From Sediminispirochaeta bajacaliforniensis DSM 16054 (GTDB lineage Bacteria; Spirochaetota; Spirochaetia; DSM-16054; Sediminispirochaetaceae), in contig NZ_KB899417.1 in the NCBI RefSeq assembly GCF_000378205.1, forward strand, positions 1-64,000: 64,000 nt of DNA, written 5' to 3'. Below the pieces are notes generated by a model. It was not told the DNA's origin. It worked only from the letters and a program-made list of their open reading frames with translations, and ran no database searches. The stretch's first letter is position 1. The number at the start of each line of letters is the position of its first letter. The position numbers and the translations under genes were made by a program. Positions 26,750 through 58,329 of the stretch are shown piece after piece.

Positions 26750-26812
26750 TAATTAGCTTCCTGATTACGTTTTTCCATCACCACGATTCATAACACTACT
26801 ATCTGCCTAGGT

Positions 26813-26893
26813 CAAATCACCTATACCAATTCAGGCCTTTTGTCTGCTGAACAAATTCACCCTATCCCTTAGAATCAACTACAGATACATAAT
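26813..26893 (+). promoter_or_regulatory. Direct repeats and weak promoter before the 26927 sugar operon
   Basis: CAAATCACCTATACC (26813-26827) and CAAATTCACCCTATCCC (26852-26868) are similar repeats 39 bases apart. The second touches the poor -35 (TCCCTT) of a promoter with -10 CATAAT (26888-26893). This layout suits an activator, perhaps the NarL-type regulator encoded in the operon. Confidence 0.35.
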
Positions 26894-26926
26894 TTCAATA
26901 TTGTGAAAAATTTGAGGAGGTTCTGC

Positions 26927-28225
26927 ATGAACAGACGTACAAGTATTATGATTTCACTTGTATTGTGCCTTGTTGTTACCGGATCGCTTTTTGCCGGTGG
27001 TGAAAGCGAGAAAAAAGCCGAAAGCGGAAAAACAACCATTACCTGGTGGGCCCTTTCCGGCGGTGGCGGGGCCGATGATGTGCGTGAAACCTATCGCCGC
27101 GATCTTATATCAGAGTATGAAGCGGCACATCCGAACGTAGATATCGAACTGACCATGCTTGAAAACGAGGCCTTTAAACAAAAGGTCCAGGTTGCGATTC
27201 AGGCAGGCAATCCGCCAGACATCTTTCATTCCTGGGGTGGCGGCGTCATGGTTGAGTACGCTCAGGTAGGGGCCCTCAAGGACATAACGGATTTTGCAGA
27301 AAGAGAGCTTTCCTCATCAATTGGGTCCGGTGCTCTGGGTGTGTATGGCTACGACGGGAAATACTATGGATCGCCTTACGACATGGGGGCGGTAGGACTT
27401 TGGTATAACAAGGCCATCTTTGCCAAACTTGGGACCGATGTCCCGAAAACCTGGCCCGAATTACTCGACATCGTAAAGAAGGCAAAGGCTGCGGGATACA
27501 TTCCCATCGCCCTCGGGGGCGGCGACCGCTGGCCTGCCCATTACTGGTGGGTCTATCTTGCCATGAGAATCGGTGGGCAGGAGGCCTTCAACGCCGCCTA
27601 TGGCGGATCGGGTTCTTTTAAGGATGAAACCTTCGTGAAGGCGGGAGAGATGCTTCTCGATCTTGCCGCTTTGGAACCTTTTCAGACCGGTTTCCTCGGT
27701 TCGACCTATGATGATGAGAGCGCCCTTATGGGAAACGGAAAGGCCGCCATGGAACTCATGGGCCAGTGGGCCCCGGCTGTCCAATCTGCCAATTCCGAGA
27801 GCGGAAAGGGAATCGGCGATGACCTCGGCTGGTTTTCGTTTCCTGCGGTCCCCGGCGGTGTCGGCAAAAATAGCGACGTCATGGGAGGTGGCAACGGTTA
27901 TGTGATCGGTGCAAAGGCTCCCGAAGAGACCCTTGACTTCCTGAAATTCTTTCTTTCCAAAAAGAATAACATGGAATTGCATAAGATAGAAGGCATTATT
28001 CCCGTGGTGAAAGGGGCCGAAGAGGTTCTTGCATCGAATCCAAATGCAGTGAAAATTGCCCAGGCGGTTGCCGGTGCAGACTATTATCAGCTGTACTATG
28101 ATCAGTTTCTGCCTCCATCTGTAGGGGAGACAATCAAGGATGCGGTTATGGCCCTACTTGCGGGAAAGGCAAGCCCGGAAGAAGCTGCGACCATGATCGA
28201 CGACTCCTGGCAGGCCGAGAAATAG
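26927..28225 (+). CDS. Extracellular solute-binding protein, sugar ABC importer
   Basis: ATG at 26927 follows a strong GAGGAGG site. The 432-residue protein starts with a signal peptide (MNRRTSIMISLVLCLVVTGS, cleavage near AGG) and a Lys/Glu-rich linker. The mature domain matches family 1 binding proteins: TTITWWALSGGGG, YEAAHPNVDIELTMLENEAF, IQAGNPPDIFHSWGGG and the ligand-region GQWAP. It is the first gene of the operon with two permeases, GH3, sensor kinase, response regulator and deacetylase. A beta-glucoside or beta-xyloside oligosaccharide is plausible from the GH3 neighbour. Confidence 0.9.
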   Translation: MNRRTSIMISLVLCLVVTGSLFAGGESEKKAESGKTTITWWALSGGGGADDVRETYRRDLISEYEAAHPNVDIELTMLENEAFKQKVQVAIQAGNPPDIFHSWGGGVMVEYAQVGALKDITDFAERELSSSIGSGALGVYGYDGKYYGSPYDMGAVGLWYNKAIFAKLGTDVPKTWPELLDIVKKAKAAGYIPIALGGGDRWPAHYWWVYLAMRIGGQEAFNAAYGGSGSFKDETFVKAGEMLLDLAALEPFQTGFLGSTYDDESALMGNGKAAMELMGQWAPAVQSANSESGKGIGDDLGWFSFPAVPGGVGKNSDVMGGGNGYVIGAKAPEETLDFLKFFLSKKNNMELHKIEGIIPVVKGAEEVLASNPNAVKIAQAVAGADYYQLYYDQFLPPSVGETIKDAVMALLAGKASPEEAATMIDDSWQAEK

Positions 28226-28238
28226 CCATGCTGTGAAA

Positions 28239-28266
28239 AAGAGGGCCTCCTTCGAGAGGTCCTCTT
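28239..28266 (+). other. Intercistronic stem-loop after binding protein gene
   Basis: AAGAGG, CCTC, loop, GAGG, CCTCTT form an 11-pair stem with one G-T pair. It lies 13 bases after the binding protein stop and before the permease. It is the same arrangement as at 12490 and 45763, and probably sets a high binding-protein to permease ratio. Confidence 0.65.
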
Positions 28267-28289
28267 GCCCACAAGGAAATACAATCACC

Positions 28290-29192
28290 ATGATGTCTTT
28301 AAACAACAAAACGATATACTCGGTGAAAAAAGCCGGCCTTGTTTTCCTGCTCATCACTCCTGCCTTTCTGCTTTTTTTGCTTTTTGTCGTCGTACCTGTC
28401 ATACAGGCCGGTCATTACTCCGTGTATAGATGGAAGGGACTCGGCCCTCTGGAGCAGTTCGTCGGATTGGGGAACTTTTTTCGAATGTTCGGCGAGGATA
28501 TATTCCTGACCGCTCTTTGGAACAATCTGAAAGTGGTAATCCTGTCCCTGCTTTTGCAGCTCCCGGTCGCCTTCTTTTTTGCACTCTTGATCGGCAGAAA
28601 GCGATTCCCCGGTTCCATGCTTTTTCGTGGTATCTATTTTTTTCCCTATATTTTGGCAGAAATCGCAATCGGTATCATCTGGAAATTTATCTATAATCCG
28701 GAATTCGGACTTCCGACCATGATCGCCTCCTTTGTAAGCGGTGGAGAGACGAAGATTGCCCTGCTTGGAAGTACCGAACACGCCTTTACCGCGATTTTTA
28801 TCGTCATTTTCTGGAAATATATCGGTTTCCACATGATTCTCTACATAGCAGGTCTTCAGAATGTTCCCGATGAGTTGGAGGAGGCTGCGATTATCGATGG
28901 GGCATCGAAATTACAGGTTGTTTTTCATGTCATCATTCCCTGCATGCGCAATACCATAGTCATATCCGTTTTCCTCTCCGTTGTCGGCGCCTTCAATATC
29001 TTTGATGTTGTCTGGGCCATGGGACAGGGCGGGCCGGTTCATTCGACCGAAACCTTGGTGACCTACCTGTATAACTTCGGATTCAAACGTTTTGCCTTTG
29101 GATACGGAAGCGCCGTGGCAATTGTTATCTTCCTGATTTGCCTGGTGTTTAATCTCTTTTATCAAAAATATATCGTTGGAGAGTCGAAGTAA
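28290..29192 (+). CDS. Sugar ABC transporter permease, MalF/UgpA type
   Basis: The likely start is ATG 28290 (or 28293), with AAGGAA upstream; a longer frame back to 28233 runs through the stem-loop. The 300-residue protein has about six helices, beginning with GLVFLLITPAFLLFLLFVVV. The EAA loop is EEAAIIDGASKLQVVFHVII. It is translationally coupled to the next permease (stop and start share a base). Confidence 0.92.
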   Translation: MMSLNNKTIYSVKKAGLVFLLITPAFLLFLLFVVVPVIQAGHYSVYRWKGLGPLEQFVGLGNFFRMFGEDIFLTALWNNLKVVILSLLLQLPVAFFFALLIGRKRFPGSMLFRGIYFFPYILAEIAIGIIWKFIYNPEFGLPTMIASFVSGGETKIALLGSTEHAFTAIFIVIFWKYIGFHMILYIAGLQNVPDELEEAAIIDGASKLQVVFHVIIPCMRNTIVISVFLSVVGAFNIFDVVWAMGQGGPVHSTETLVTYLYNFGFKRFAFGYGSAVAIVIFLICLVFNLFYQKYIVGESK

Positions 29193-30058
29193 TGGCGAAA
29201 AACTTATCCATACAAGTATCACATCATCGACTGTCCGGGAGAAAACGGTCCTCGCTGAAATTCCTGCTTGGGCTTTTCATCGCCGTAGCCATGTTTTTTC
29301 CCATGTATGCCGTCATCATCTGTAGCGTTAAAACAAACGGACAGGTGCTATCCGATCCCTTCGGCATACCGCAGCCCTTTGATCTTACGGCCTTCGGTCT
29401 TGTACTTGGAAAGTCGGGAGAGTTTTGGGGCTTTCTGTACAATTCGGTTGTCATAGCTGTTTCGACAATCATTATTGTCGATCTTTTCTCTATGGCTGCC
29501 GGTATTGCACTTTCGCGGATACCCTTTAAGGGACGGCCCTTGATCTATAATTTTTTCATCATGGGAATGTTGTTTCCCATAACGGTTGCTGTCCTGCCGC
29601 TCTACCTTCAGCTACGGGATTTGGGATTGCTCGGAACGCAAGGGGGTGTGATATTGGCCGAAGCGGCCTTCGGGCTACCCATGGCCATCTTTTTATTTAC
29701 CGGCTTTTTCAAGGATGTTCCCCGGGAATTACAAGATGCCTGCCAGATAGACGGCGGCGGCATACTCACCTTCTTCTTTAAAATCGTTATTCCGATATCC
29801 AAGCCTGTTGTCGCCACCGTTTCGATCATCACCTTTATCCAGAGTTGGAACCAATTTCTTTTTCCTCTGCTTGTTCTGGACAATTCGAGTAAGTTCACGA
29901 TTCCCCTGGGAATCATGCAGTTTCAGGGACAGTTTACCACCGGGTGGAACCAGGTTATGGCGTTTATCACCATTTCGATTATCCCGATGGCTGCCTTCTA
30001 TTTTTCGGCCCAGCGCTATATTGTTGCCGGCCTGACCGCCGGAGCCGTAAAGGGTTAG
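29192..30058 (+). CDS. Sugar ABC transporter permease, MalG/AraQ type
   Basis: The 288-residue inner-membrane protein starts at ATG inside TAATG, with GGAGAG upstream. It has six helices, first FLLGLFIAVAMFFPMYAVII. The EAA loop is QDACQIDGGGILTFFFKIVI, and the end is TAGAVKG as in other CUT1 permeases. It forms the pore with the product of the preceding gene. An ATPase is not encoded in the operon. Confidence 0.92.
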   Translation: MAKNLSIQVSHHRLSGRKRSSLKFLLGLFIAVAMFFPMYAVIICSVKTNGQVLSDPFGIPQPFDLTAFGLVLGKSGEFWGFLYNSVVIAVSTIIIVDLFSMAAGIALSRIPFKGRPLIYNFFIMGMLFPITVAVLPLYLQLRDLGLLGTQGGVILAEAAFGLPMAIFLFTGFFKDVPRELQDACQIDGGGILTFFFKIVIPISKPVVATVSIITFIQSWNQFLFPLLVLDNSSKFTIPLGIMQFQGQFTTGWNQVMAFITISIIPMAAFYFSAQRYIVAGLTAGAVKG

Positions 30059-30078
30059 CATTTTTTAGGAGTACTACC

Positions 30079-32433
30079 TTGCAAGACTATCATGATAAGG
30101 CTTTGACATTATGTAACAAAATGACGATCCATGAAAAGCTGGCCCAGATGTATTCGGTTTGGTTCAACATCAGGCCGGACGGCAGCCTCTGGCTAAAGGA
30201 CCATACGGGTATGGCCGTGACCGAATCACCGGTCCGCTTTGAAGAACTGCTGAAAGAGGGAGTAGGGGAAATAACCCGGCCTCTGGGAAGCCAGCCGATT
30301 GATGCCCGTACCGCCGTGAAGGCGCTCAATTCGATACAGGAGTTTCTCGTTAAAGGGACACGACTCGGTATTCCGGCACTTGCACACGAGGAGTGCCTGG
30401 CCGGACTCATGGCAAAGGGGTCGACCTTTTTTCCGTCGGGCATCAGCCTTGGGGCCCTGTGGAATGAAGGACTGGTGGAAAAAATCGCAAAGGCCATTGG
30501 CGATGAACTCTACTCGGTAGGCAGCAGGCAGGGCTTAGCTCCGGTGCTCGATGTCAGCAGGGATGCCCGTTGGGGACGGACCGAGGAATCCATGGGGGAA
30601 GATCCCTATCTTGTCGGTTCCCTTGCTGCCGCCTATGTTCGGGGCTTCCAAGGGAAAGACGGGAGACTGCTTGCAACATTGAAGCATTATGTTGGCCACT
30701 CCTTTTCCGAGGGGGCGAGGAATCATGCCCCGGTGCGAATGGGTCAGGACGAGTTGAATGATGTTATGCTGCTTCCCTTTGAGATGGCGGTAAAGCTGGC
30801 GCATGCGGCCTCCGTTATGCCGGCATATCATGATATCGACGGCATTCCCATGCACGCCTCTCTCACCTATCTGCGGGAGGTCCTCCGCGAAAAGTGGGGC
30901 TTCGACGGCATTATCGTTTCTGATTATTCGGGAATTGGGCAGCTTTATCACGATCACCGGGTCGCCGAGGATCTTGCCTCCGCCGCTTGTCTCGCAATAG
31001 AAGCCGGGGTTGATGTCGAATTACCCGGGCACGAATGTTATAAAAGCGGGGCCCTTGCTGCGATCGAACGGGGGGATCTCCCCGTTTCCCTTGTCGACGG
31101 GTGTGTGACGAGGGTCCTTGAGCAAAAGTTTAGAGTCGGCCTCTTTGAACACCCCTATGCCGATGTCGATGCAATCTCCCTGCGAAGTGATGAGCATCTT
31201 GAGCTTGCCTACGAGGCTGCGGTGAAATCGATGGTCCTTCTCAAGAATGAAGGAATACTTCCCCTTGATCAAGGGAAGAAGATCGCCTTGATCGGTCCCC
31301 TTGCCGATGATCCGCTCTGTTTTTTCGGCGGCTACTCCTTTCCCGTACACCATATTTTGAGTTCCCTGGATGAGCGGGATGAAGGAGTCAGGACCCTGAA
31401 GGAGATTTTTGAATTGGTTCCGGGATCACTCTTTTCTTATGCAAAGGGCTGCGACATTCTTTCTCAGCGACCGAAGGATGCTCCGGTTTTTCCCGGTGAT
31501 GCGCATCTCGATGGTAGTGTCCAACACTCCTATGTCAGCCATGACAGATCAGGTTTCCCCTCGGCTTTAGCGGCTGCTCGGTCCGCCGATGTCGTTGTCC
31601 TTGCCCTCGGCGATCTTGCCGGGCTCTTTCTTGCAGGAACCGTCGGTGAAGGGTCTGATGCCAGTTCTCTTGTTTTGCCCGGGGTTCAGCAGGAACTTCT
31701 TGAGGAGCTGCTCGGCCTTGGAAAACCGGTGGTACTCGTTTTGCTGAGCGGACGCCCCTATAGCCTGGACCTTGCCTCCGAGCGATGCAGCGCCATCCTT
31801 CAGGCGTGGCTTCCCGGGCAGAAGGGGGCGCAGGCAGTCGTAGATATCCTGTACGGCAGGCAGAATCCGTCCGGAAAACTCCCTGTCTCCATTCCTAAAG
31901 CAGCAGGGGCCATGCCTTTCTTCTACAATCATACAATAAAGTCGGCAGGTACCCCCATTCAGCTCGATTTCGGGGCCACCTATCCCTTCGGCCACGGACT
32001 GAATTACACCAGCTTTTCTTTCGATGATTTCCGGCTTGACGATACAAGGGTGGCCATAGAGGGAGAGATTACCGGAAGCTTTATCCTGCGAAACAGCGGT
32101 GAACGGGAGGGGGAAGAGGTCGTTCAGATATATGTCCGCGATTTGTATGCATCACGAGTACGCCCCGTAGAGGAGCTTAAAGGCTTTAAACGGGTATACC
32201 TCGCAAAAGGTGAGTCGACGCTTGTTCGCTTTGCCGTTCCTGTCGATATGCTGAACTTTACCAAGGGGAATTTCGCCAGGGTTGTCGAGGCGGGGGCCTT
32301 TGAAATCTCCATTGGAAGATCTTCCAGGGATATTCTCTTTACCGATATCGTTCAGGTGACAGGAGAGGAGCGGATCCTCCCTGAGCAGTGGAATATGCAA
32401 TCGTCGATTACGCTATCCCCTTGCGCCTTTTAG
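30079..32433 (+). CDS. Glycoside hydrolase family 3 (beta-glucosidase/xylosidase type)
   Basis: The start is TTG at 30079 with AGGAG nine bases upstream; frames reaching further left lie over the permease gene. The 784-residue cytoplasmic enzyme has the three GH3 domains. The barrel carries GLAPVLDVSRDARWGRTEES, LATLKHYVGHS and the nucleophile D282 in IIVSDYSGIG. The alpha/beta sandwich contains AVKSMVLLKNEGILPL and GEGSDASSLVLPG, where a glutamate acts as acid/base. The fibronectin-like domain (FILRNSGEREGEEVVQIYVR) ends it. It splits beta-linked gluco- or xylo-oligosaccharides brought in by the transporter. SDY replaces the commoner SDW at the nucleophile. Confidence 0.92.
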   Translation: MQDYHDKALTLCNKMTIHEKLAQMYSVWFNIRPDGSLWLKDHTGMAVTESPVRFEELLKEGVGEITRPLGSQPIDARTAVKALNSIQEFLVKGTRLGIPALAHEECLAGLMAKGSTFFPSGISLGALWNEGLVEKIAKAIGDELYSVGSRQGLAPVLDVSRDARWGRTEESMGEDPYLVGSLAAAYVRGFQGKDGRLLATLKHYVGHSFSEGARNHAPVRMGQDELNDVMLLPFEMAVKLAHAASVMPAYHDIDGIPMHASLTYLREVLREKWGFDGIIVSDYSGIGQLYHDHRVAEDLASAACLAIEAGVDVELPGHECYKSGALAAIERGDLPVSLVDGCVTRVLEQKFRVGLFEHPYADVDAISLRSDEHLELAYEAAVKSMVLLKNEGILPLDQGKKIALIGPLADDPLCFFGGYSFPVHHILSSLDERDEGVRTLKEIFELVPGSLFSYAKGCDILSQRPKDAPVFPGDAHLDGSVQHSYVSHDRSGFPSALAAARSADVVVLALGDLAGLFLAGTVGEGSDASSLVLPGVQQELLEELLGLGKPVVLVLLSGRPYSLDLASERCSAILQAWLPGQKGAQAVVDILYGRQNPSGKLPVSIPKAAGAMPFFYNHTIKSAGTPIQLDFGATYPFGHGLNYTSFSFDDFRLDDTRVAIEGEITGSFILRNSGEREGEEVVQIYVRDLYASRVRPVEELKGFKRVYLAKGESTLVRFAVPVDMLNFTKGNFARVVEAGAFEISIGRSSRDILFTDIVQVTGEERILPEQWNMQSSITLSPCAF

Positions 32434-32437
32434 CTGT

Positions 32438-34840
32438 TTGTCCGACTATTGTGGGGTGATTGTACGCCGAAGGTCGAAGAGAAACGTGGATAAAAATATC
32501 GGTGTTTTTACCGCTGAACTGAATGATGCCTACCAGGCGGCCGTTTGGAAGGGTATTGTTTCCCAGGCACAGGCCCTGGAACTGGGTCTGGTCTGTTTCC
32601 TCGGTTCCAGAGTCAAGTCGCCCATTGCAACGGAGCAATGCTCGAACATCGCATATTCCCTTGCGGATAAGGAAAATATCGATGGCTTAATCATCATTTC
32701 ATCGGCGATTTCCACCTACCTCGATTTTCAGGCGGTTACGGAGCTTTTCCGCATACGCAGCGACCTCCCGCAGGTTTCCGTGGGCCTGGGAATACCCGGG
32801 ATTCCAAGCATCATCGTAGACGGCAGGATCGGTATGGTCTCCGTTATTCGACATCTGGTGGAGGTTCACGCCCGGCGCTCCTTTGCGCTTATCTCGGGAC
32901 CTTCCGGTCATCTTGAAGCCGATGCACGTAAGAAAGCGTTTTTCGATACCCTGGCCGATTATACTATCCCTTTCGATCGGCGGCTCATGATCGAGGGGAG
33001 CTTTGAGCAGCGGTCGGGAAGCGAGGGGGTGAGAGCTCTTCTGGCCGAAGGTATACCCTTTGATGCGCTGGTTTGTTTGAATGACAAAATGGCCTTGGGA
33101 GCATTGGACGAGTTGTCGCATCATGGCATTTCCGTTCCCGATGATGTGGCCCTTGTTGGATTCGACGGTATCGAGGAGACCCTTTTTTGCCAGCCCCCGC
33201 TGACGACGGTCCGTCAGCCGCTCTTTGAACTTGGTGCGGCTGCGGTAGAAGAGGTATGTGCACTCATCCATGGAGGCAAGGGACAGAATCGCTATCTCAA
33301 CAGTAGTGTTAGGATCGGCGAATCCTGCGGCTGCCGCCATAGCTGGATTCCCGATGCCTCGAAGTTGGACTCCTGGGTGAAAGGCCTGGACGACTTTGAA
33401 CGTGATACCATGGCCCGGCTGCGTGCCTTCATCTTCGAAGAGAATGAATCGGGGTTTCTCGAGTTTCTGGAAAGGGGGATGATGCCGGATACCTACAATG
33501 GAGAGGGCTTGCGACGCTTTCATACCCTTTTATATGCCATCCAGCAGGAGCTGTTGTCCTGCGGCGAATCCGGCGAGAGAGGCTCCCTGTCCCGGCGTCT
33601 GCGGCTTATATCGACAGGGCTGGGCCGCTTGACGGAGCTAACCACGAGAATACTCTCTTCCAGGCGGCTTAAGGCGATGGAACGTAATTTCCTTGCACGC
33701 TCGATCGGTGCCGCCCTCGCCGAGGCCTTTGAGATGGAAAGTATCGTCAAAACCCTCTCAAAGGGCTTGGTGAGCCTTGGTTTCTCAGAGGCCTACCTTG
33801 TCATTTTTCTCGATTCCCGAGATGGTAAGGAGCTTTCAAGGGTCTTTCCCCTGCCTTTGGCCGAAGGAGACGATCCTATGGCGAAGGGGTATGTTTTCAA
33901 AACCACCTCACTCCTTCCCGATCAAATCGATTTCGGCTGGAAGCGAAAACAGTGGGTGCTAAAACCCCTTGTCTACCAGCATGAGCCCCTGGGCTATATT
34001 CTTCTACCGGTGGCAGTGGATGATCCTGCTCTCTACGATCTCCTGAGTAAACAGATATCCAGTACAGTAAAGGGTGCCAGGCTCCTTGAGCAGGTACGAT
34101 CTCATGAGAAGAGCCTGGAAGAAGAGGTTTCGCGGCGAACTGCGGAATTGACCAAGACCAATGAGTGTTTGCAAACCGAGGTTGACAGGCGCATCAGACT
34201 TGAGCAGGAAGTGATCGACATCTCAAACAATACCATGAATCGCATAGGCCAGGATCTTCATGACGACCTGTGTCAGCACCTTGCCGGGATCTCTATGATC
34301 ACGGAAGTGCTGAAAAATTCACTGGAGCCCGGCAGCCATCCCTACGAGGTATGCACCCAGATAAACGACTTGATCATTAACTCTGTCGATCGGGCGAAGG
34401 GGATAGCACGGGGGCTTGTTCCTGTGGGCTTGAAGGAGAACGGATTCATTGCCGCCGTCGATACCTTGCTTGAGGCCTTGAGGAAGGGCAATACGATTGA
34501 TATGCGTCTCGAGCGCTCCCCTGATTTTTTCCTGAAAAACGACGATCGGGCCCTCCAGCTTTATAGAATTGTGCAGGAAGCTTTATCAAATTCGATAAAG
34601 CATGCAAACTGTTCGCATATTATGGTAAAACTGCATACGCAGCAAAAAGGAAACGGACGACTGATTGAGATCATAGATGACGGTACAGGCTTCTCCGATA
34701 AAGACGAAGGTAATGGAATGGGATTGAAGATTATGCGATATCGTGCCGAGAAGGCTCAGGTACACCTGCTGGTCGAAAAAATGGAACGGGGAACAAAGGT
34801 CTCCTGCCTGATACCGCAGGAGTTATGCTATGAGAAATAA
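32438..34840 (+). CDS. Soluble LacI-type sensor histidine kinase
   Basis: Up to 800 residues. The start is uncertain: TTG 32438 has no ribosome site, and GTG 32486 fits better the usual start of the sensor (DKNIGVFTAELNDAYQAAVW). Residues 20-300 are a LacI/ribose-binding-type sugar sensor (GLIIISSAIS, SFALISGPSGH, DALVCLNDKMALGALDEL, DDVALVGFDGIEET). A SCGC motif ends this part. A GAF-like region (about 405-545) and a coiled coil (EEEVSRRTAELTKTNECLQT) lead to HisKA_3, with the phosphorylated H608 in GQDLHDDLCQHL, and an ATPase domain (EALSNSIKHAN, DDGTGFS, GNGMGLKIM). There is no signal peptide or membrane helix, so it senses a cytoplasmic sugar. It overlaps its response regulator. Confidence 0.9.
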   Translation: MSDYCGVIVRRRSKRNVDKNIGVFTAELNDAYQAAVWKGIVSQAQALELGLVCFLGSRVKSPIATEQCSNIAYSLADKENIDGLIIISSAISTYLDFQAVTELFRIRSDLPQVSVGLGIPGIPSIIVDGRIGMVSVIRHLVEVHARRSFALISGPSGHLEADARKKAFFDTLADYTIPFDRRLMIEGSFEQRSGSEGVRALLAEGIPFDALVCLNDKMALGALDELSHHGISVPDDVALVGFDGIEETLFCQPPLTTVRQPLFELGAAAVEEVCALIHGGKGQNRYLNSSVRIGESCGCRHSWIPDASKLDSWVKGLDDFERDTMARLRAFIFEENESGFLEFLERGMMPDTYNGEGLRRFHTLLYAIQQELLSCGESGERGSLSRRLRLISTGLGRLTELTTRILSSRRLKAMERNFLARSIGAALAEAFEMESIVKTLSKGLVSLGFSEAYLVIFLDSRDGKELSRVFPLPLAEGDDPMAKGYVFKTTSLLPDQIDFGWKRKQWVLKPLVYQHEPLGYILLPVAVDDPALYDLLSKQISSTVKGARLLEQVRSHEKSLEEEVSRRTAELTKTNECLQTEVDRRIRLEQEVIDISNNTMNRIGQDLHDDLCQHLAGISMITEVLKNSLEPGSHPYEVCTQINDLIINSVDRAKGIARGLVPVGLKENGFIAAVDTLLEALRKGNTIDMRLERSPDFFLKNDDRALQLYRIVQEALSNSIKHANCSHIMVKLHTQQKGNGRLIEIIDDGTGFSDKDEGNGMGLKIMRYRAEKAQVHLLVEKMERGTKVSCLIPQELCYEK

Positions 34841-35483
34841 CGTCAGATTTTTGGTTGTTGATGATCATCCGGTCTTTCGCCAGGGGCTTGTTGTCCTCCT
34901 TTCCAGCAATCCCCGTTATGAAATTTGTGGCCAGGCCGGGACAATCGAAGAGGCCCTCGATATCTGCCGGGAGAAGCTCCCGGATATCGCCCTCGTCGAT
35001 ATATCCCTTTCCCATCAGAATGGGCTTGATTTGGTTCGTCGTTTTAAGTCCTTAGACCCCGACATGCCGATTCTCATTATTTCGATGCATGATGAATTGG
35101 TGTATGCCGAACGGGCCCTGAAATCGGGAGCAAACGGGTATGTCATGAAACAAGAAGCCTCGGCCGTAATGCTCGACGCCGTGAAAACGGTCCTTGCGGG
35201 AAAGATTTATGTGTCGCCTGCCATGAACGAACGGCTGCTTGCAACTGTCTTTGGCCAGAGAGAGGAGCGGGACGGCCTGGTCAATCTGCTGAGTGACCGG
35301 GAATTCGAGGTTCTGGAATATATCGGCCAAGGCTATGGGGCTAGTGAGATATCACAAATTCTCAATCTGTCGGTAAAAACCGTAAACACCTATAGAGACC
35401 ACATCAAAGAGAAGATGAATTTCGACACCGCAGCGGCGATACGCAGGTATGCCGTGAAATGGTGGCAGAGTCGCAGGCCATGA
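34830..35483 (+). CDS. NarL/FixJ-type response regulator
   Basis: The gene overlaps the kinase gene by 11 bases. The 217-residue protein has a receiver domain with acidic pocket D11-D12 (FLVVDDHPV), phosphorylation site D57 (IALVDISLSHQNG), and the switch segment LIISMHDE...GANGYVMKQE. A LuxR-type helix-turn-helix (LSDREFEVLEYIGQGYGASE then ISQILNLSVKTVNTYRDHIK) binds DNA. It is the partner of the LacI-sensor kinase and probably activates this sugar operon. The direct repeats at 26813-26868 are candidate sites. Confidence 0.93.
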   Translation: MRNNVRFLVVDDHPVFRQGLVVLLSSNPRYEICGQAGTIEEALDICREKLPDIALVDISLSHQNGLDLVRRFKSLDPDMPILIISMHDELVYAERALKSGANGYVMKQEASAVMLDAVKTVLAGKIYVSPAMNERLLATVFGQREERDGLVNLLSDREFEVLEYIGQGYGASEISQILNLSVKTVNTYRDHIKEKMNFDTAAAIRRYAVKWWQSRRP

Positions 35484-36157
35484 CCGGGAAAAAGCTTTAT
35501 GCACTCACCTTCGACGACGGTCCCGATACCGAAAAGAGTTCGAAGATCCTCGATCGCCTCGAAATCCATGGCGTTCCCGCCTCATTCTTTGTCGTCGGCA
35601 GTCGCATTAGCGACGAGAGTCGGCCGATCCTGCAGCGTGCCCGCTCGCTTTCGTGTGAGATCGAAAATCACGGTTGGAGTTACGACCCCATGGATGGTAT
35701 GAGTAGAGAAGAGATCGTGCGTTCGGTTTCTGCATGCTCGGACGCAATTCAGAAAGCGGTCGGTGAAGAGCCTTGTTTTTTTCGTCCCCCGAATCTCGCT
35801 CTCTCGCCTACCATGCTTGACACCATTGCTTATCCCATGGTCGGTGGAATTGCGGCCATGGATTGGCAAGGGTGTCACACCACGGCCCGGCAGCGGGCGG
35901 ACAAGATCCTTTCTCAGATCTGCGACGGTGCCATCCTTCTTTTGCACGATGTCCAGCCCGACCCGCATCCAACCCCCCAGGCCCTTGATCTGCTGCTTCC
36001 CGCCTTAGAGCGCCTCGGCTATCGCTGCGTGAGCCTTCGAACCCTTTTTTCTCTCAGGGGAGGCATCCCATCCCCGGGAGAAAGGAAATTGTGGGTGAAC
36101 GTCCCGCCTCTATGTCTATCACATAAGCGGGCAGATCCTCCGGGCTGGAATGGGTGA
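35480..36157 (+). CDS. NodB-type polysaccharide deacetylase homologue with altered metal site
   Basis: The start at 35480 is an ATGA overlap with the response regulator stop. The 225-residue product has no signal peptide. It shows NodB motifs: LTFDDGPD (D12, D13), ENHGWSY where H64 is kept but the second histidine of the HxxxH motif is replaced by Y68, FRPPN in place of RPPYG, and LLLHDVQ near the end. In carbohydrate esterase family 4 the Asp-His-His triad holds the metal, so the change may alter or abolish deacetylation. Its position last in a sugar operon suggests an intracellular oligosaccharide role. Confidence 0.85.
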   Translation: MTGKKLYALTFDDGPDTEKSSKILDRLEIHGVPASFFVVGSRISDESRPILQRARSLSCEIENHGWSYDPMDGMSREEIVRSVSACSDAIQKAVGEEPCFFRPPNLALSPTMLDTIAYPMVGGIAAMDWQGCHTTARQRADKILSQICDGAILLLHDVQPDPHPTPQALDLLLPALERLGYRCVSLRTLFSLRGGIPSPGERKLWVNVPPLCLSHKRADPPGWNG

Positions 36158-37551: not shown

Positions 37552-37778
37552 GAAGCTTTCCTCCAATAGATCCTTTGACTTGCAGGCGGCAGGCAGACGA
37601 AAGGGGAGGAGTCTTGTTTGAGGCTATGCCAAAAGGGGGAAAGCTGTCAAGGTGTCGCCAAAACTGTTCGGTTTTTCCGCGACAATATCACAAAATGTAT
37701 ATTTTCCCACTAAAAAATGGAATGAAATTGCTGCATTGCCCATGCTATTTTTGTTCAAGCGGCAGAAAGGAGGATGAG

Positions 37779-38666
37779 ATGGGGAGAGGAGTGCGACAGA
37801 ACAGCATGTGGGAACATCTGTTTTTTCTCGGTCCGGCGACGCTTCTGTTTTTTATCATCGTTTTTGTTCCCTTTGTGACGGGTTTTATTCATTCATTTAG
37901 CGATTGGAACGGCATAACAAAAGAACTATCATTTATCGGCCTTGAAAATTACAAGAATATCTTTACACGGCAGTCTGATTTTCTGCACACCTTTTGGTTT
38001 ACCTTACGCTTTGCCATTGTACAGGTTGTCCTGGTCATGGTTATCGGCGTGGCCCTGGCCGTAGTCCTTGTCATGCCTCTTAGATTTCGTGATGCACTGA
38101 GGGCCTCTTTTTATCTTCCCCAAACGATCGGGGGCCTAGTCCTCGGCTTTATCTGGCAGTTTATCTTCATCAATGGTTTCCCCGCTTTCGGGACCCTTTT
38201 CCATCTTGATTTTATGCAGCTTCCCTGGCTCGGGACCGAAGAGACCGCCTTTACCGCCTTGATCATTGTCAGTACCTGGCAAAATGTGGGGTATGTCATG
38301 GTCATCATGACCGCCGCTCTCATGGGCATTTCGCGGGATGTTCTGGAATCCGCCGAGATTGACGGTGCCGGTACCTTTCGTACCCTTTTCAGGATCAAAC
38401 TTCCCATCTGCATGCCTTTCATCACGGTGGCGCTGTTCTGGAGTACCGCAAATGTTTTCAAGATGTTCGAGCTCAATCTATCCCTGACAAAGGGAGGGCC
38501 GTATGGTTCAACGGTATCCATGGCCCTGGGGATCTACAACGATGCCTTCGTCAAGAATCGCTACGGCCTGGCGTCCGCAGAATCCGTCATATTTTTCCTC
38601 ATCATATTGATCATTACCTCGATTCAGTTGTTTTTGAGCAGAAAGAAAGAGGAGGCCTACTCATGA
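37779..38666 (+). CDS. Sugar ABC transporter permease, MalF/UgpA type
   Basis: ATG 37779 follows AAGGAGG; a longer frame to the left is non-coding in character. The 295-residue protein has six helices (first LFFLGPATLLFFIIVFVPFV) and the EAA loop ESAEIDGAGTFRTLFRIKLP. It is the first gene of an operon ordered permease, permease, binding protein, GH3, which differs from the binding-protein-first order of the other importers here. Confidence 0.92.
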   Translation: MGRGVRQNSMWEHLFFLGPATLLFFIIVFVPFVTGFIHSFSDWNGITKELSFIGLENYKNIFTRQSDFLHTFWFTLRFAIVQVVLVMVIGVALAVVLVMPLRFRDALRASFYLPQTIGGLVLGFIWQFIFINGFPAFGTLFHLDFMQLPWLGTEETAFTALIIVSTWQNVGYVMVIMTAALMGISRDVLESAEIDGAGTFRTLFRIKLPICMPFITVALFWSTANVFKMFELNLSLTKGGPYGSTVSMALGIYNDAFVKNRYGLASAESVIFFLIILIITSIQLFLSRKKEEAYS

Positions 38667-39502
38667 ACGGCATAAACGGGAGGCAGACCATTTCGTCGAC
38701 GATCCTTTATGTGATTATGTGTATAGCGGCCTTTCTTTTTCTTTTCCCGCTTCTGTTCGTCTTTCTCAACTCCCTAAAACCATTGCAGGATATTATTTCA
38801 CATCCACTTTCCCTTCCAAAACAGTTTTTGTGGAGCAATTATACGAACGCATGGAAGATCGTAAATTTCCCTCTTCTGATCAGGAATACCTTTATCGTCA
38901 CCCTTTTTTCCCTTTTGGGAATCATCCTTTTTGCCACGATGGTGGCCTGGTGGCATATCAGGCATCCATCTCGCTATTCGAAGATTTTGACGACGGCCAT
39001 CATCATGTCGATCCTGATTCCCTTTGCATCCATCATGATTCCCCTTGTGCAGGTCCTCGGCCGTATTGGTATAAACAATACCCTCTTTGGGGCTGTGCTT
39101 ACCTATTGGGGAATCGGACTGGCCTTTGCCTATTTCCTGATGAGGGGAGCTGTCATGGCTCTTCCCGCTGAACTTGAAGAGGCCGCAAAGATCGACGGAT
39201 ACGGGACCATCCCTATCTTCTTTACCATCGTCCTGCCGCTTTTGGCTCCCACGATGATGAGTGTCCTTGTGATGGATGGGTTCTGGATCTGGAATGATGT
39301 CATGGTGCCCCTGATCGTTATCAATAACCATGCCCTGAGTACGATCCAGCTTGGTATCAATAGATTATTCGGCATGTACAACAGTAGATGGGAGGTCGCA
39401 TTACCCGCTTTGGTCTTGAGTATGATTCCCATCCTGGTGGTTTTCATTGCCGCTCAGAAGAGGATTATGGCGGGAATCCTTTCTGGTGCGGTGAAAGGAT
39501 AG
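38663..39502 (+). CDS. Sugar ABC transporter permease, MalG/AraQ type
   Basis: This 279-residue protein starts at an ATGA overlap with the previous gene. It has six helices, first SSTILYVIMCIAAFLFLFPL, the EAA loop EEAAKIDGYGTIPIFFTIVL and the usual LSGAVKG end. It pairs with the permease before it to form the membrane channel; the ATPase is not in the window. Confidence 0.92.
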   Translation: MNGINGRQTISSTILYVIMCIAAFLFLFPLLFVFLNSLKPLQDIISHPLSLPKQFLWSNYTNAWKIVNFPLLIRNTFIVTLFSLLGIILFATMVAWWHIRHPSRYSKILTTAIIMSILIPFASIMIPLVQVLGRIGINNTLFGAVLTYWGIGLAFAYFLMRGAVMALPAELEEAAKIDGYGTIPIFFTIVLPLLAPTMMSVLVMDGFWIWNDVMVPLIVINNHALSTIQLGINRLFGMYNSRWEVALPALVLSMIPILVVFIAAQKRIMAGILSGAVKG

Positions 39503-39533
39503 TGTTGGGAATGCTATTTCAAAGGAGGAATAT

Positions 39534-40799
39534 ATGAAAATAGCTAAGGGTCTATGCCTAGTATGCTTTGCAGCGGTGTCGCTTTTGCCGCTCATGGCCG
39601 GAGGTCAGGCCGATTCGGCGCAGGCTTCAGGTGGGAAGACGACGATCTTTCTCTCTCAGAGCAAAATCGAGATTGATCAGGCCCTTCGTGATGTAACTGC
39701 TCGCTACAGCGAGTTGCATCCGGATGTGGAATTTGTCATCGAGTCTTTGAGTGACAATTATACGACCAGCCTTCGTACCAAATTCGCCGGAGGCGAGGCC
39801 CCGGATATCTTTATGATATTGGGTGGTTCGGAACTCGACCTCTGGCAGTCGCGTCTTGAAGATCTCAGCGATCAGCCCTGGGTTTCCGACATGGTGCCGC
39901 TGGCAAAAGAGGGCATAAGTACCGCTGACGGTATGGTGTACGGCTTTCCCGTATCGGTAGAGGGCTACGGCTATGTCTACAACAAACGGCTCTTTGCCGA
40001 GGCTGGCATCACCTCGGTCCCGAAGACCTTCACCGAATTACAGCGTGCCGTTGAAAAACTGAAGCAGGCGGGAATACAGCCCCTTGCAGGTACCTATATG
40101 GATTGGTATCAGGCGGGAATGTTTCTGGTGAATATGGGAATTGCCAGGCAGCCCGATCCCCTTGCCTTCATACAGGGCCTGAACGATGGAAGCGAAACTT
40201 TTGTCGGAAACGAAATCTTCGAGGAGGTTGCCAATTTCATCCTCTACGATTTCTCTCAGTGCGAATCTCCCCTGAACACCGGCTTTAACCAGCAGACTGC
40301 CCTCCTGTACAGCGAATCTATCGCCATGACCCTTGGCGGAAACTGGCTTCAACCCTCCATTGATAGTGCAAACCCCGATATGCAGGTCGGTTTGATTCCG
40401 ATGCCGATCAGCGACGATGTCGCAAGCAACGACAAGCTCTATGCCGGTGTTACGGGATACTGGGTCATTAATAAAGAGTCTCCGGCGAAAGAAGAGGCGA
40501 AGGCCTTTCTTACCTGGCTCGCAACGAGCGAAGAGGGACGGAAAGCGATGACGGACCAGCTCCTTTTTATCCCGGCCTTCACAAGCTTCGAAGCAAATCC
40601 CGACAAGGTTGGGGCCCTGAGTTCGGATCTCTCCCGCTATGCAAGCCAGGGGAAGGTCTACGGCATCTACAATTCCATGTACCCGGCCGGTGGGGCGGAA
40701 TACTTCGGAAATGCGGTCCAGAAGCTTGTGGCGGGAAAGCTCGATGTCCCCGGCTTTCTCGAAGAGCTGCAAACACGCTGGGATCAGTTAAAGAGATAG
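39534..40799 (+). CDS. Extracellular solute-binding protein, sugar ABC importer
   Basis: ATG 39534 follows AAAGGAGG. The 421-residue protein has a signal peptide (MKIAKGLCLVCFAAVSLLPL, cleavage near MAGG). Its body is a family 1 binding protein: YSELHPDVEFVIESLSDNY, LRTKFAGGEAPDIFMILGGS, VYGFPVSVEGYGYVYNKRLF and LGGNWLQP. No stem-loop follows it, unlike the three binding protein genes that head their operons. Its partner is the GH3 downstream, so a beta-linked gluco-oligosaccharide is the likely load. Confidence 0.9.
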   Translation: MKIAKGLCLVCFAAVSLLPLMAGGQADSAQASGGKTTIFLSQSKIEIDQALRDVTARYSELHPDVEFVIESLSDNYTTSLRTKFAGGEAPDIFMILGGSELDLWQSRLEDLSDQPWVSDMVPLAKEGISTADGMVYGFPVSVEGYGYVYNKRLFAEAGITSVPKTFTELQRAVEKLKQAGIQPLAGTYMDWYQAGMFLVNMGIARQPDPLAFIQGLNDGSETFVGNEIFEEVANFILYDFSQCESPLNTGFNQQTALLYSESIAMTLGGNWLQPSIDSANPDMQVGLIPMPISDDVASNDKLYAGVTGYWVINKESPAKEEAKAFLTWLATSEEGRKAMTDQLLFIPAFTSFEANPDKVGALSSDLSRYASQGKVYGIYNSMYPAGGAEYFGNAVQKLVAGKLDVPGFLEELQTRWDQLKR

Positions 40800-40822
40800 G
40801 ATAAAGAAATAGGAATAGAGGA

Positions 40823-43192
40823 ATGACGGGAACAAGAGCAATCGAAACGATCCTTGGGCAGATGAGCCTTGATGAAAAACTTCGCTTATGCACCGGTGAC
40901 GGGCTATGGCATACGGCGGCATTCCCGCATCTCGGGATTCCCGCTGTGCTGATGAGCGACGGGACCAGCGGAGTACGGCTGCAAAAAGAGTCTAAAGAGC
41001 CTGATGATGCCAATTTCGCCTATAATGCGATCAACAGCAGCTTCGACAGCGATGAGGCTCTGACCTGTACCTATGTCGCAACCTGCTTTCCCTCCGGATC
41101 GACGATCTCTTGTTCCTGGGATACCGGGCTTATACAGGAGGTGGGCCGGGCCATTGCCGAGGAGTGCAGGGCCCTGGGCATCCACCTTCTGCTGGGGCCC
41201 GGAATTAATATCCGCCGGCATCCCCTCACCGCGCGTAATTTCGAATACTATTCCGAGGACCCCTTTCTGACCGGCCGCATGGGTGCGGCCATGGTGAAGG
41301 GGCTTGAGGAAAGGGGGGTGGGTGCGGTCGTCAAACACTTTGCCTGCCATCACAGCGACAGTAACAGAACCAGGGTTGATGAAATCTGTGACCGTCGTAC
41401 ACTCCACGAGATATACCTTGCCGCCTTTGAGCATATTGTCACGACGGCCCACCCTGTCGGGGTGATGAGCTCTTACAACAAGATAAACGGGGTCTATGCC
41501 TCTGCAAACCATTGGCTTTTGACTGAGCTCCTGCGGGAGCGTTGGGGCTTCGACGGGTTCGTCATCAGCGACTGGGGAGGGGTGACGGATCCTGTGGCCG
41601 CTTCAAAGGCGGGGTTGGATCTGCAGATGCCGGAGTCCCTCGGCTCTAAAGCGTATCTGCGTGAGCGTATCCTTGCAGGCGAACTCGATGAGTTGCACAT
41701 CGACAGGCGGGTGCGTAACATTCTTCGGATGGTATTTCGTCTTGAGGGTATGCGGCAGGAAGGCGGTCAGGTCGACGCCCGTATGCAGCATGATCTTGCC
41801 AGAAGGGCCGCCGCAGAGTCTATCGTGCTTTTGCGAAATGAGAACCATGTGCTGCCGCTTTCGGCCTCCTGCGGCACGATTGCCGTTATCGGTGAGCTTG
41901 CCCTCTCTCCCCTTTACCAGGGGACGGGCTGCGCGATCGTGAACAGCAGGCGGGTGGATAGCCCCCTCGACTGCATCAAGGAGCAAGCTCCGGCTGAGAC
42001 AAAGGTACTCTTTAGCCGGGGGTACCTCGGCGCCGGAGCGGGCGACGGCGAGGGCGATGCATCCATGGTGGAGGAGGCGAGGGCCTGTGCCGCCTCCGCC
42101 GATATCGTCGTGTGCTTTCTCGGAAGCTTTTTACCTCCTGAATCCGATCATTACAATCGTGAGCATATGCGTGTTGAAGCGGGACATGAGCGAGTGCTGG
42201 AGGCCGTGCTTTCCACGGGCAAGCCGGTGGTCGCCGTCCTGCAATCAGGCGATGCGGTTGAGATGGCCTGGAGCGACCGGGTCGATGCACTGCTGATGAC
42301 GGGATTCGGCGGTGAAGGTGTGGGAGATGCGCTTGCCAGGGTACTCTTCGGATCGGTCAATCCCAGCGGCAGGCTGCCGGTAACGATTCCCAAAAGTCTC
42401 CGGCAAACCCCCGCCTTTACCAGTTTTCCCGGTGACGGTTTCAACCTTGTCATCGGTGAAGGCATATTTACCGGTTACCGTTACTATGATTACCGGGGAC
42501 TGGACCCCCTTTTTCCCTTCGGCTACGGTCTCTCCTACACCAGCTTTACCTATGCTGATGTGAAGCTCTCTTCCGAAACCATCAGGCTGCCTGGATCTCT
42601 TGAAGTAGCGGTGGAGGTGGAAAACAGCGGTGAGTTCTTCGGAAAAGAGGTTGTTCAACTCTATCTTTCGCAAGGCTCTCCATGCATACCCCGCCCGGTA
42701 CGGGAATTGAAGGGCTTTGCAAAGCTCTCCCTTGCCCCGGGAGAGAAAAAACGTGCCTGCTTTACCCTGTGTGAACGTGATTTTTCCTATTTCGATGAAA
42801 GCCGAAATAGTTGGGTCATCGACAGCGATACCTTTCGTATCGAGATCGGTTCTTCAAGCCGGGATATCAAGGCCTCTGCCCCGGTCCGGATTATCGCCCC
42901 TCCGAAGCCCTCACGGATGCTGACTGCGGAAAGTGGCTTTTCCGAGATCCTCGAGAATGCGATAAGCCGGGATATGCTTTTCGATTTTCTCGTCGACCAG
43001 GGAATCATCACCAGATCCGATGTAACAGAAGCCCTCGAACATGCCTTACGCAAAAGTTTCTGGGGACTTTACTCGTATCTCGATATGAATACGGATGGCA
43101 GGGTCTCGCCCCCCATGGTCAGGGCCTTGACCGGGGCCATGAACCGCGCCATCGAAGCGGCCGCACAAGGCGTTGCTAATAGAGGCCGATAA
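40823..43192 (+). CDS. Glycoside hydrolase family 3 with C-terminal helical extension
   Basis: The 789-residue cytoplasmic enzyme has the barrel (GIPAVLMSDGTSGVRLQ, LGPGINIRRHPLTARNFEYY, AVVKHFACHHSD), nucleophile D250 in FVISDWGG, the alpha/beta domain and a fibronectin-like domain (VEVENSGEFFGKEVVQLYLS). About 85 residues follow the last domain. They are mostly helical and contain YLDMNTDGRVSP, which looks like a single EF-hand or dockerin-like loop but lacks its closing glutamate. It is a beta-glucosidase-type enzyme for the sugar delivered by the transporter. Its end overlaps the convergent AraC gene by 17 bases. Confidence 0.92.
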   Translation: MTGTRAIETILGQMSLDEKLRLCTGDGLWHTAAFPHLGIPAVLMSDGTSGVRLQKESKEPDDANFAYNAINSSFDSDEALTCTYVATCFPSGSTISCSWDTGLIQEVGRAIAEECRALGIHLLLGPGINIRRHPLTARNFEYYSEDPFLTGRMGAAMVKGLEERGVGAVVKHFACHHSDSNRTRVDEICDRRTLHEIYLAAFEHIVTTAHPVGVMSSYNKINGVYASANHWLLTELLRERWGFDGFVISDWGGVTDPVAASKAGLDLQMPESLGSKAYLRERILAGELDELHIDRRVRNILRMVFRLEGMRQEGGQVDARMQHDLARRAAAESIVLLRNENHVLPLSASCGTIAVIGELALSPLYQGTGCAIVNSRRVDSPLDCIKEQAPAETKVLFSRGYLGAGAGDGEGDASMVEEARACAASADIVVCFLGSFLPPESDHYNREHMRVEAGHERVLEAVLSTGKPVVAVLQSGDAVEMAWSDRVDALLMTGFGGEGVGDALARVLFGSVNPSGRLPVTIPKSLRQTPAFTSFPGDGFNLVIGEGIFTGYRYYDYRGLDPLFPFGYGLSYTSFTYADVKLSSETIRLPGSLEVAVEVENSGEFFGKEVVQLYLSQGSPCIPRPVRELKGFAKLSLAPGEKKRACFTLCERDFSYFDESRNSWVIDSDTFRIEIGSSSRDIKASAPVRIIAPPKPSRMLTAESGFSEILENAISRDMLFDFLVDQGIITRSDVTEALEHALRKSFWGLYSYLDMNTDGRVSPPMVRALTGAMNRAIEAAAQGVANRGR

Positions 43193-55336: not shown

Positions 55337-55369
55337 CCAATCTTTATAATGAGGGAGTGGAGAAACAGA

Positions 55370-57706: not shown

Positions 57707-57741
57707 TATGAAATAAATCCTTAGGTACGGGAGATAACATC

Positions 57742-58329
57742 ATGCTAATAATGCCCACGGATGATACAAAGACCCGCATTATGAAGAGTACTATCCTTCT
57801 TTTTAACGAGTTTGGCCCCATGGCACCTATGTCCAAAATCAGTGAAAGGGCGGGAGTCGCCGGGGGAACGCCATACAAGTATTTTAAAACCAAGGAAATG
57901 TTGCTTCTTGAGACCTATTACTATGCTCGTAACAGCGTAGAAAAAATAGGCCGGAACGATCCGCTGGCACAAACATCTGCCGAAGGCATTATCAAAGTCA
58001 TTATCTTGGACATACTTCGCTGGTCCGCTCTTTATCCGGATGAGCACCAGTACGTGGAAAAGTACGAAGATTCGGTATGCTATAATTATTTCTCTGAGGA
58101 ATTTGCGAAACTTTATGTGGGCGTAATCAGGGAACTGCATCTTTGGGATCGTATTAGAAATGATGTGCGAGAAGATATCCCCGAAGTAATTATCAGCAGG
58201 ATTATCTCTGTTCATTGTAGCGTATTCAGCCGCTACATGAGCAATTTTACTATGGACTTGGATGCGCCCGAAACGAAAGCGTTGATGAACGCTTCAGCCG
58301 ATTCCATTTGGAGCAGTATAAAAAAATAA
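57742..58329 (+). CDS. TetR-family regulator
   Basis: The 195-residue protein starts at ATG 57742, with GGGAG nine bases upstream. Its N-terminal helix-turn-helix reads TRIMKSTILLFNEFGPMAPM followed by SKISERAGVAGGTPYKYFKT, which is the TetR pattern. The helical C-terminal part is a ligand-binding and dimer domain. It lies 35 bases after the flavin reductase gene and probably represses it through the palindrome at 55305, releasing it when the electron acceptor is present. Confidence 0.92.
   Translation: MLIMPTDDTKTRIMKSTILLFNEFGPMAPMSKISERAGVAGGTPYKYFKTKEMLLLETYYYARNSVEKIGRNDPLAQTSAEGIIKVIILDILRWSALYPDEHQYVEKYEDSVCYNYFSEEFAKLYVGVIRELHLWDRIRNDVREDIPEVIISRIISVHCSVFSRYMSNFTMDLDAPETKALMNASADSIWSSIKK

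Follow-up and report, generated by a model that had tools for sequence, protein, structure and literature searches.

Within the window, the 64,000-nucleotide stretch of Sediminispirochaeta bajacaliforniensis DSM 16054 contig NZ_KB899417.1 that we analysed, a compact operon encodes a CUT1 ABC transporter, a GH3 glycosidase, a soluble sensor histidine kinase, a NarL/LuxR-type response regulator and a CE4 deacetylase, and is preceded by a palindrome that we consider a candidate operator (Table 1).

Table 1. Features of the kinase locus, with positions counted from the first letter of the window
Feature	Position	Strand	Basis and remarks
Candidate operator GCCTAGGTCAAATCACCTATAC, core TAGGT-N6-ACCTA at 26808-26823	26805..26826	.	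79 bp ahead of the start codon of the SBP gene
CUT1 ABC transporter solute-binding protein (SBP), predicted xylo-oligosaccharide-binding	26903..28225	+	Closest solved chains
MalF-type permease	28233..29192	+	ORF; homologues adjoin the kinase in relatives
MalG-type permease	29192..30058	+	ORF; homologues adjoin the kinase in relatives
GH3 glycosidase, beta-xylosidase-like	30076..32433	+	Pfam GH3; start probably near 30076 (the longest ORF begins at 29944)
Soluble sensor histidine kinase	32438..34840	+	ORF, Pfam; TTG start, GTG at 32486 likelier
LacI/ribose-binding-type sensor domain, residues 20-300; contacts R164, N215, D243	32495..33337	+	Pfam, Foldseek, conservation
SCGC motif, residues 296-299	33323..33334	+	Both cysteines invariant in 16/16 kinases
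Helical linker, residues 301-430	33338..33727	+	Model; dN/dS 0.25
GAF-like domain, residues 431-530	33728..34027	+	Foldseek of separate model
Long helix / coiled coil into kinase, residues 531-600	34028..34237	+	Model helix 531-627
HisKA_3 dimerisation and phosphoacceptor domain; His608 at 34259-34261	34238..34426	+	Pfam; H608, D609 invariant
HATPase_c domain, residues 705-795; E714, N718, DxGxG 747-751	34550..34822	+	Pfam; invariant residues
NarL/LuxR-type response regulator, phosphoacceptor Asp57	34830..35483	+	Pfam Response_reg and GerE
CE4 polysaccharide deacetylase, acetylxylan-esterase-like	35480..36157	+	Closest solved chains; overlaps the regulator gene end

Counted from a TTG codon that lies 4 bases after the end of the GH3 gene, the kinase open reading frame encodes 800 amino acids. 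Its true start is probably the GTG at 32486 rather than this TTG, since codons 1-18 show a dN/dS of about 1, a value drawn from few codons. The preliminary description had taken the protein to be a soluble LacI-type sensor kinase and had named a membrane segment hidden by a wrong start as what might undo this reading. This is not the case: a stop codon stands in frame 26 codons 5' of the TTG. An overlooked membrane segment is also ruled out by the peak 19-residue hydropathy (1.45, versus 3.08 in the neighbouring permease used as a control) and by the N-termini of relatives, which likewise start shortly ahead of the LacI domain. The same stop leaves no room for an overlooked upstream DNA-binding head, and Pfam found no helix-turn-helix in the kinase. 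Comparison of its nucleotide sequence with that of the congener shows purifying selection on the gene, with a dN/dS of 0.056 in the LacI domain, 0.029 in the GAF-like domain, 0.039 in HisKA_3 and 0.25 in the helical linker, which rules out a pseudogene or a chance open reading frame.

The kinase is built, in order, of a LacI sensor, the SCGC motif, helices, a GAF-like domain, a coiled coil, HisKA_3 and HATPase_c, so that every part named in the preliminary description was recovered. Pfam matched Peripla_BP_3 at residues 138-297 (3.8e-25), Peripla_BP_1 at 20-282 (6.5e-19), HisKA_3 at 601-663 (1.6e-06) and HATPase_c at 705-795 (2.6e-13), all four exceeding the gathering cut-off. A full-length model (pLDDT 82) shows the LacI domain, the helical linker, a GAF-like fold, a single long helix running into the kinase, and the ATPase domain. 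The top Foldseek matches of the LacI part of this model were LacI-family domains, several of them sugar-bound, with TM(target) values of 0.83-0.88 among the best ten. Alignment to LacI-family chains placed R164, N215 and D243, invariant in 16 of 16 aligned kinases, at the positions of R197, N246 and D274 (LacI numbering), the classic sugar contacts of LacI. From this conserved pocket and the lack of a membrane or signal segment, we infer that the sensor reads an intracellular sugar.

At the end of the LacI core, the S-C-x-C pattern of the SCGC motif is invariant or nearly so across LacI fusions, whatever their output, and is missing from ten LacI transcription factors of the S. bajacaliforniensis genome; a role in fold, metal binding or redox chemistry may be considered for it. 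The helical linker that follows is the least conserved part of the kinase. No Pfam model matched the GAF-like region, and a sequence search with the middle region retrieved coiled-coil look-alikes only; AlphaFold, applied separately to residues 303-556, gave a model (pLDDT 86) whose best PDB matches were GAF domains (E 1.9e-4, prob 1.0), including those of KdpD and PDE5A. This domain could carry a second signal.

In the kinase core, H608, D609, E714, N718 and the G-box are kept in the 16 aligned kinases, one of which lacks the ATPase end at a contig edge. The regulator gene (217 codons) overlaps the end of the kinase gene; D11, D12, D57 and K107 of its product are kept in at least 95% of 45 aligned regulators, and the DNA-binding domain is well conserved among relatives. 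With a phosphoacceptor His, the N and G boxes of HATPase_c and a Response_reg and GerE partner bearing its Asp, the kinase and the regulator are ordinary HisKA_3/NarL parts, and the new variant is the input. The earlier statement that a LacI fold had exchanged its DNA-binding head for a kinase holds in that a head was lost and a kinase gained; the exchange is not like for like, the kinase being C-terminal and the head N-terminal.

A search for the same architecture, as the preliminary description had proposed, retrieved full-length relatives with about 40-46% identity in scattered spirochaetes. In an alignment scan of 84,980 species, full-length relatives came only from spirochaetes among the matches listed, Sphaerochaeta halotolerans being one source, and outside spirochaetes the matches listed covered the kinase half alone; no record in a plasmid collection covered 80% of the protein. 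Full-length relatives are therefore likely to be absent outside spirochaetes. The pairing with the regulator is constant, as the two genes adjoin in all 45 loci that have downstream sequence (48 loci in total). Among the 32 loci with at least 7 kb downstream, CUT1 permeases were found in 29, GH3 in 21 and either in 31, and in most of the relatives' genomes the closest orthologues of the SBP and of the GH3 enzyme sit near the kinase.

The products of the neighbouring genes point to xylan. The SBP has XylC (8xba, 2.9e-93) and the xylo-oligosaccharide-binding protein 3zkk (1.5e-61) as its closest solved chains, followed by 4g68 and 3vxb, and is identical to XylC at all four of the residues reported as essential in that protein, Trp91, Trp191, Trp271 and Asp382 (PMC12125979). 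The closest solved chain of the GH3 enzyme is the beta-xylosidase 7zb3 (1.3e-195), and its top NCBIfam model, under the cut-off, is beta-xylosidase/arabinosidase. For the CE4 protein the closest is 2c71, the polysaccharide-deacetylase chain of a clostridial GH11 cellulosome enzyme (1.8e-58), with a further match to 7ax7, annotated as an endo-1,4-beta-xylanase (7.6e-38). Since these three neighbours are of xylan type and D-xylose supports growth of the congener S. smaragdinae (PMC3035371), xylose or short xylo-oligosaccharides appear to be the best guess for the ligand of the kinase. The neighbours thus strengthen the earlier suggestion of a xylo-oligosaccharide ligand class. Among LacI-type sensors, the XylRA activator of a Vibrio xylan locus responds to xylose and not to beta-1,3-xylo-oligosaccharides (PMC12125979).

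The same two-component system might instead respond to something other than a xylan product, for example glucose or cellobiose, arabinose, or a catabolite signal. GH3 specificity is hard to call from sequence, this enzyme falling below every NCBIfam cut-off, and the SBPs that adjoin the relatives' kinases differ, with 25-74% identity or none recognised. Xylose cannot be the ligand in every kinase relative, as several of the more distant ones adjoin other transporters. We nevertheless regard a non-xylan ligand at this locus as unlikely, given that the SBP, GH3 and CE4 proteins each indicate xylan independently and that the four essential residues for binding xylo-oligosaccharides are kept in the SBP.

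Comparison of the regions 5' of the SBP orthologues revealed the palindrome TAGGT-N6-ACCTA, which occurs with no more than one mismatch in 11 of 18 such regions, 60-112 bp from the start codon, at a level matched by at most 1.5% of dinucleotide shuffles in each of the 11. The exact core appears once in the 4.57-Mb S. bajacaliforniensis genome, ahead of the operon, and once in that of S. smaragdinae. Under a scoring matrix built without the Sediminispirochaeta sites, the window site scored 25.2, the next best in the window 13.7, and the maximum over 100 shuffled windows was 19.3. The palindrome is linked to the kinase pair: it was found 5' of the SBP orthologue in 11 of 17 genomes with the pair and in none of 12 without it (Fisher p = 0.0004, in a test that ignores kinship, with group membership assigned from the searches and with SBPs that are mostly more distant in the genomes without the pair, at 44-55% identity and one at 66%). 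Exact palindromes occur at 1.36 per 100 kb in kinase loci and at 0 in control loci. Some genomes with the pair (G002, G078 and G453) have no good site 5' of the SBP gene; in G078 a site was found 5' of the GH3 gene in the kinase operon. Genome-wide there are about 38 sites with one mismatch, fewer than the 148 of a reversed control pattern, and we therefore claim no targets beyond the kinase operon.

Because the palindrome recurs in diverged spirochaetes and is linked to the pair, is present 5' of the SBP gene in G332 although SBP and kinase pair lie there on separate contigs, and stands just 3' of the regulator gene in four loci (L073, L085, L086 and L119), it is a probable binding site of the GerE regulator. 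It might belong to a different regulator, with the kinase and its partner acting elsewhere, and the shared inheritance of an operon could link site and pair. This is quite unlikely in our view: in those four loci the site keeps its place beside the regulator gene despite differing downstream genes, it is missing at the SBP orthologues of genomes without the pair, and the DNA-binding domain of these regulators is well conserved. The candidate operator and the link of the kinase pair to a xylan operon are new here.

The reading that we favour, with a probability of about two in three, is that a soluble two-component system reads cytoplasmic xylose or xylo-oligosaccharide and switches the xylan operon through a regulator acting on the palindrome. 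The CUT1 transporter would import (acetyl)xylo-oligosaccharides, which the cytoplasmic GH3 and CE4 enzymes would cleave, and xylose or a short xylo-oligosaccharide would close the LacI domain of a kinase dimer. Closure would be passed through the SCGC junction, the helical linker, the GAF-like domain and the coiled coil to set the phosphorylation of His608, from which the phosphate would move to Asp57 of the adjacent regulator. The phosphorylated regulator would then bind the TAGGT-N6-ACCTA site that precedes the SBP gene by 79 bp, and would probably activate the operon that encodes the transporter, the kinase and the regulator itself, in a positive feedback. That the LacI domain senses the transporter or another protein, or serves as a structural dimerisation module, all without binding free sugar, is very unlikely: soluble kinases may dock on transporters and the GAF-like domain and coiled coil could take other inputs, but all 16 aligned kinases keep R164, N215 and D243, the LacI dN/dS is 0.056, and a purely structural domain would be expected to lose pocket residues.

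The proposed system, a single soluble chain with a separate regulator, shares features with several known ones. XylR (XylRA; E. coli and Vibrio) likewise has an intracellular LacI-type sensor that lacks the LacI head and carries another output at its C-terminus; XylRA binds xylose (Kd 5.1 uM) and is the regulator of a xylan locus (PMC12125979). XylR, however, is a one-component protein with the AraC helix-turn-helix on the same chain, whereas the window system has a histidine kinase and a separate regulator, and Pfam found no C-terminal AraC helix-turn-helix in the kinase. The BT1754-type hybrid two-component systems of Bacteroides also fuse a sugar-binding sensor to a kinase and control an adjacent glycan locus (PMC3404733), but they span the membrane, with a periplasmic sensor and a fused regulator of AraC output, while the window kinase is soluble, of HisKA_3 type and served by a separate LuxR-type regulator. 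XylFII-LytS of Clostridium similarly feeds a xylose signal into a histidine kinase by way of a sugar-binding protein (PMC6321045); there, xylose in the environment is sensed by a distinct binding protein, which docks onto the kinase at its ligand-binding domain. LacI/GalR transcription factors share the sensor fold and the sugar-contact residues with the window kinase, which in turn lacks their N-terminal helix-turn-helix and has additional SCGC, GAF-like and kinase parts. The NarL/NarX, UhpB and MctS-type systems share HisKA_3, HATPase_c and the Response_reg and GerE partner; their kinases match in the kinase half only, all NCBIfam matches being far below the cut-offs.

In a review of hemicellulase regulation, the two-component sensing described runs through membrane proteins (PMC10766802), and a review of cyclic-di-GMP sensing counts the LacI PBP-like domain as a putative sensory domain whose function is unknown (PMC8846402). 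We found no study of a soluble LacI-type histidine kinase in the open-access literature searched, and this agrees with the preliminary description, whose author knew of no characterised member. The familiar two-component systems for carbohydrates detect sugar on the outer side of the membrane, and LacI domains usually belong to repressors of the one-component type. With a soluble LacI-kinase, the cytoplasmic sugar pool would be read and the signal amplified through phosphorylation; such a protein could also reveal how the allostery of a LacI domain is redirected from a head at the N-terminus to a kinase at the C-terminus. As S. smaragdinae can be cultivated and the operon is compact, with a single candidate operator, the ligand, phosphorylation and DNA binding are all open to direct tests.

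The window kinase fits a wider module, composed of a short N-terminal tail, the LacI core, S-C-x-C, a helical/GAF-like middle region (a fold modelled for the kinase branch only) and an exchangeable C-terminal output. In other proteins the LacI core, SCGC and middle region are fused to HisKA, methyl-accepting chemotaxis (MCP) signalling, GGDEF, HD-GYP, LuxR and AraC outputs, some members carrying HTH_18. In a quick tree, the LacI-SCGC sensors split from the sampled LacI transcription factors with a support of 96, and output types were interleaved, with 22 output changes (minimum possible 9; 44 with shuffled labels); the tree, which has many long branches, suggests repeated exchange of outputs. 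It is an evenly balanced possibility that spirochaetes possess a general module for sensing carbohydrates inside the cell, a LacI fold stripped of its DNA-binding head, equipped with an SCGC/GAF-like connector and coupled to many bacterial outputs (histidine kinases of two kinds, cyclic-di-GMP enzymes, chemoreceptor domains, SpoIIE-type domains, and LuxR and AraC heads), of which the present branch would be one that switches a xylan operon through a conserved operator of its own.

The S. bajacaliforniensis genome has a single LacI-SCGC fusion; a second candidate, a 726-aa open frame on contig C18, was rejected as a GntR-LacI regulator with a spurious extension. The genome of one 6.8-Mb spirochaete (G461) has 30 such fusions (L240-L269), all with SC-x-C, with HisKA, HisKA_3, GGDEF, EAL, HD, SpoIIE, LuxR and AraC outputs. 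The wider module, so abundant in one genome, suggests that much of the sugar sensing inside spirochaete cells belongs to an extensive layer that is still uncharacterised. Five soluble LacI-SCGC proteins (L032, L053, L062, L063 and L065, the last assigned by similarity to L063) end in a methyl-accepting chemotaxis signalling domain and are candidate cytoplasmic sugar chemoreceptors. Outside spirochaetes, a LacI-type sensor was seen in an annotated EAL-domain protein on plasmid pDEIPE01 of Deinococcus peraridilitoris (L180, 3447-6488).

Elsewhere in the window, a second operon of a CUT1 transporter and a GH3 enzyme lies directly downstream (37575-43192); this GH3 is arabinopyranosidase-like by NCBIfam, below the cut-off, and the operon has no TAGGT-N6-ACCTA site at one mismatch or fewer. 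Its GH3 protein has a C-terminal extension (42900-43192) in which a calcium-loop-like LDMNTDGRV was noticed by eye, possibly the remnant of a dockerin or EF-hand. Also by eye, the region 55349-58329 was seen to encode a flavin-type reductase with two N-terminal repeats, probably FMN-binding, that adjoins a TetR-like regulator.
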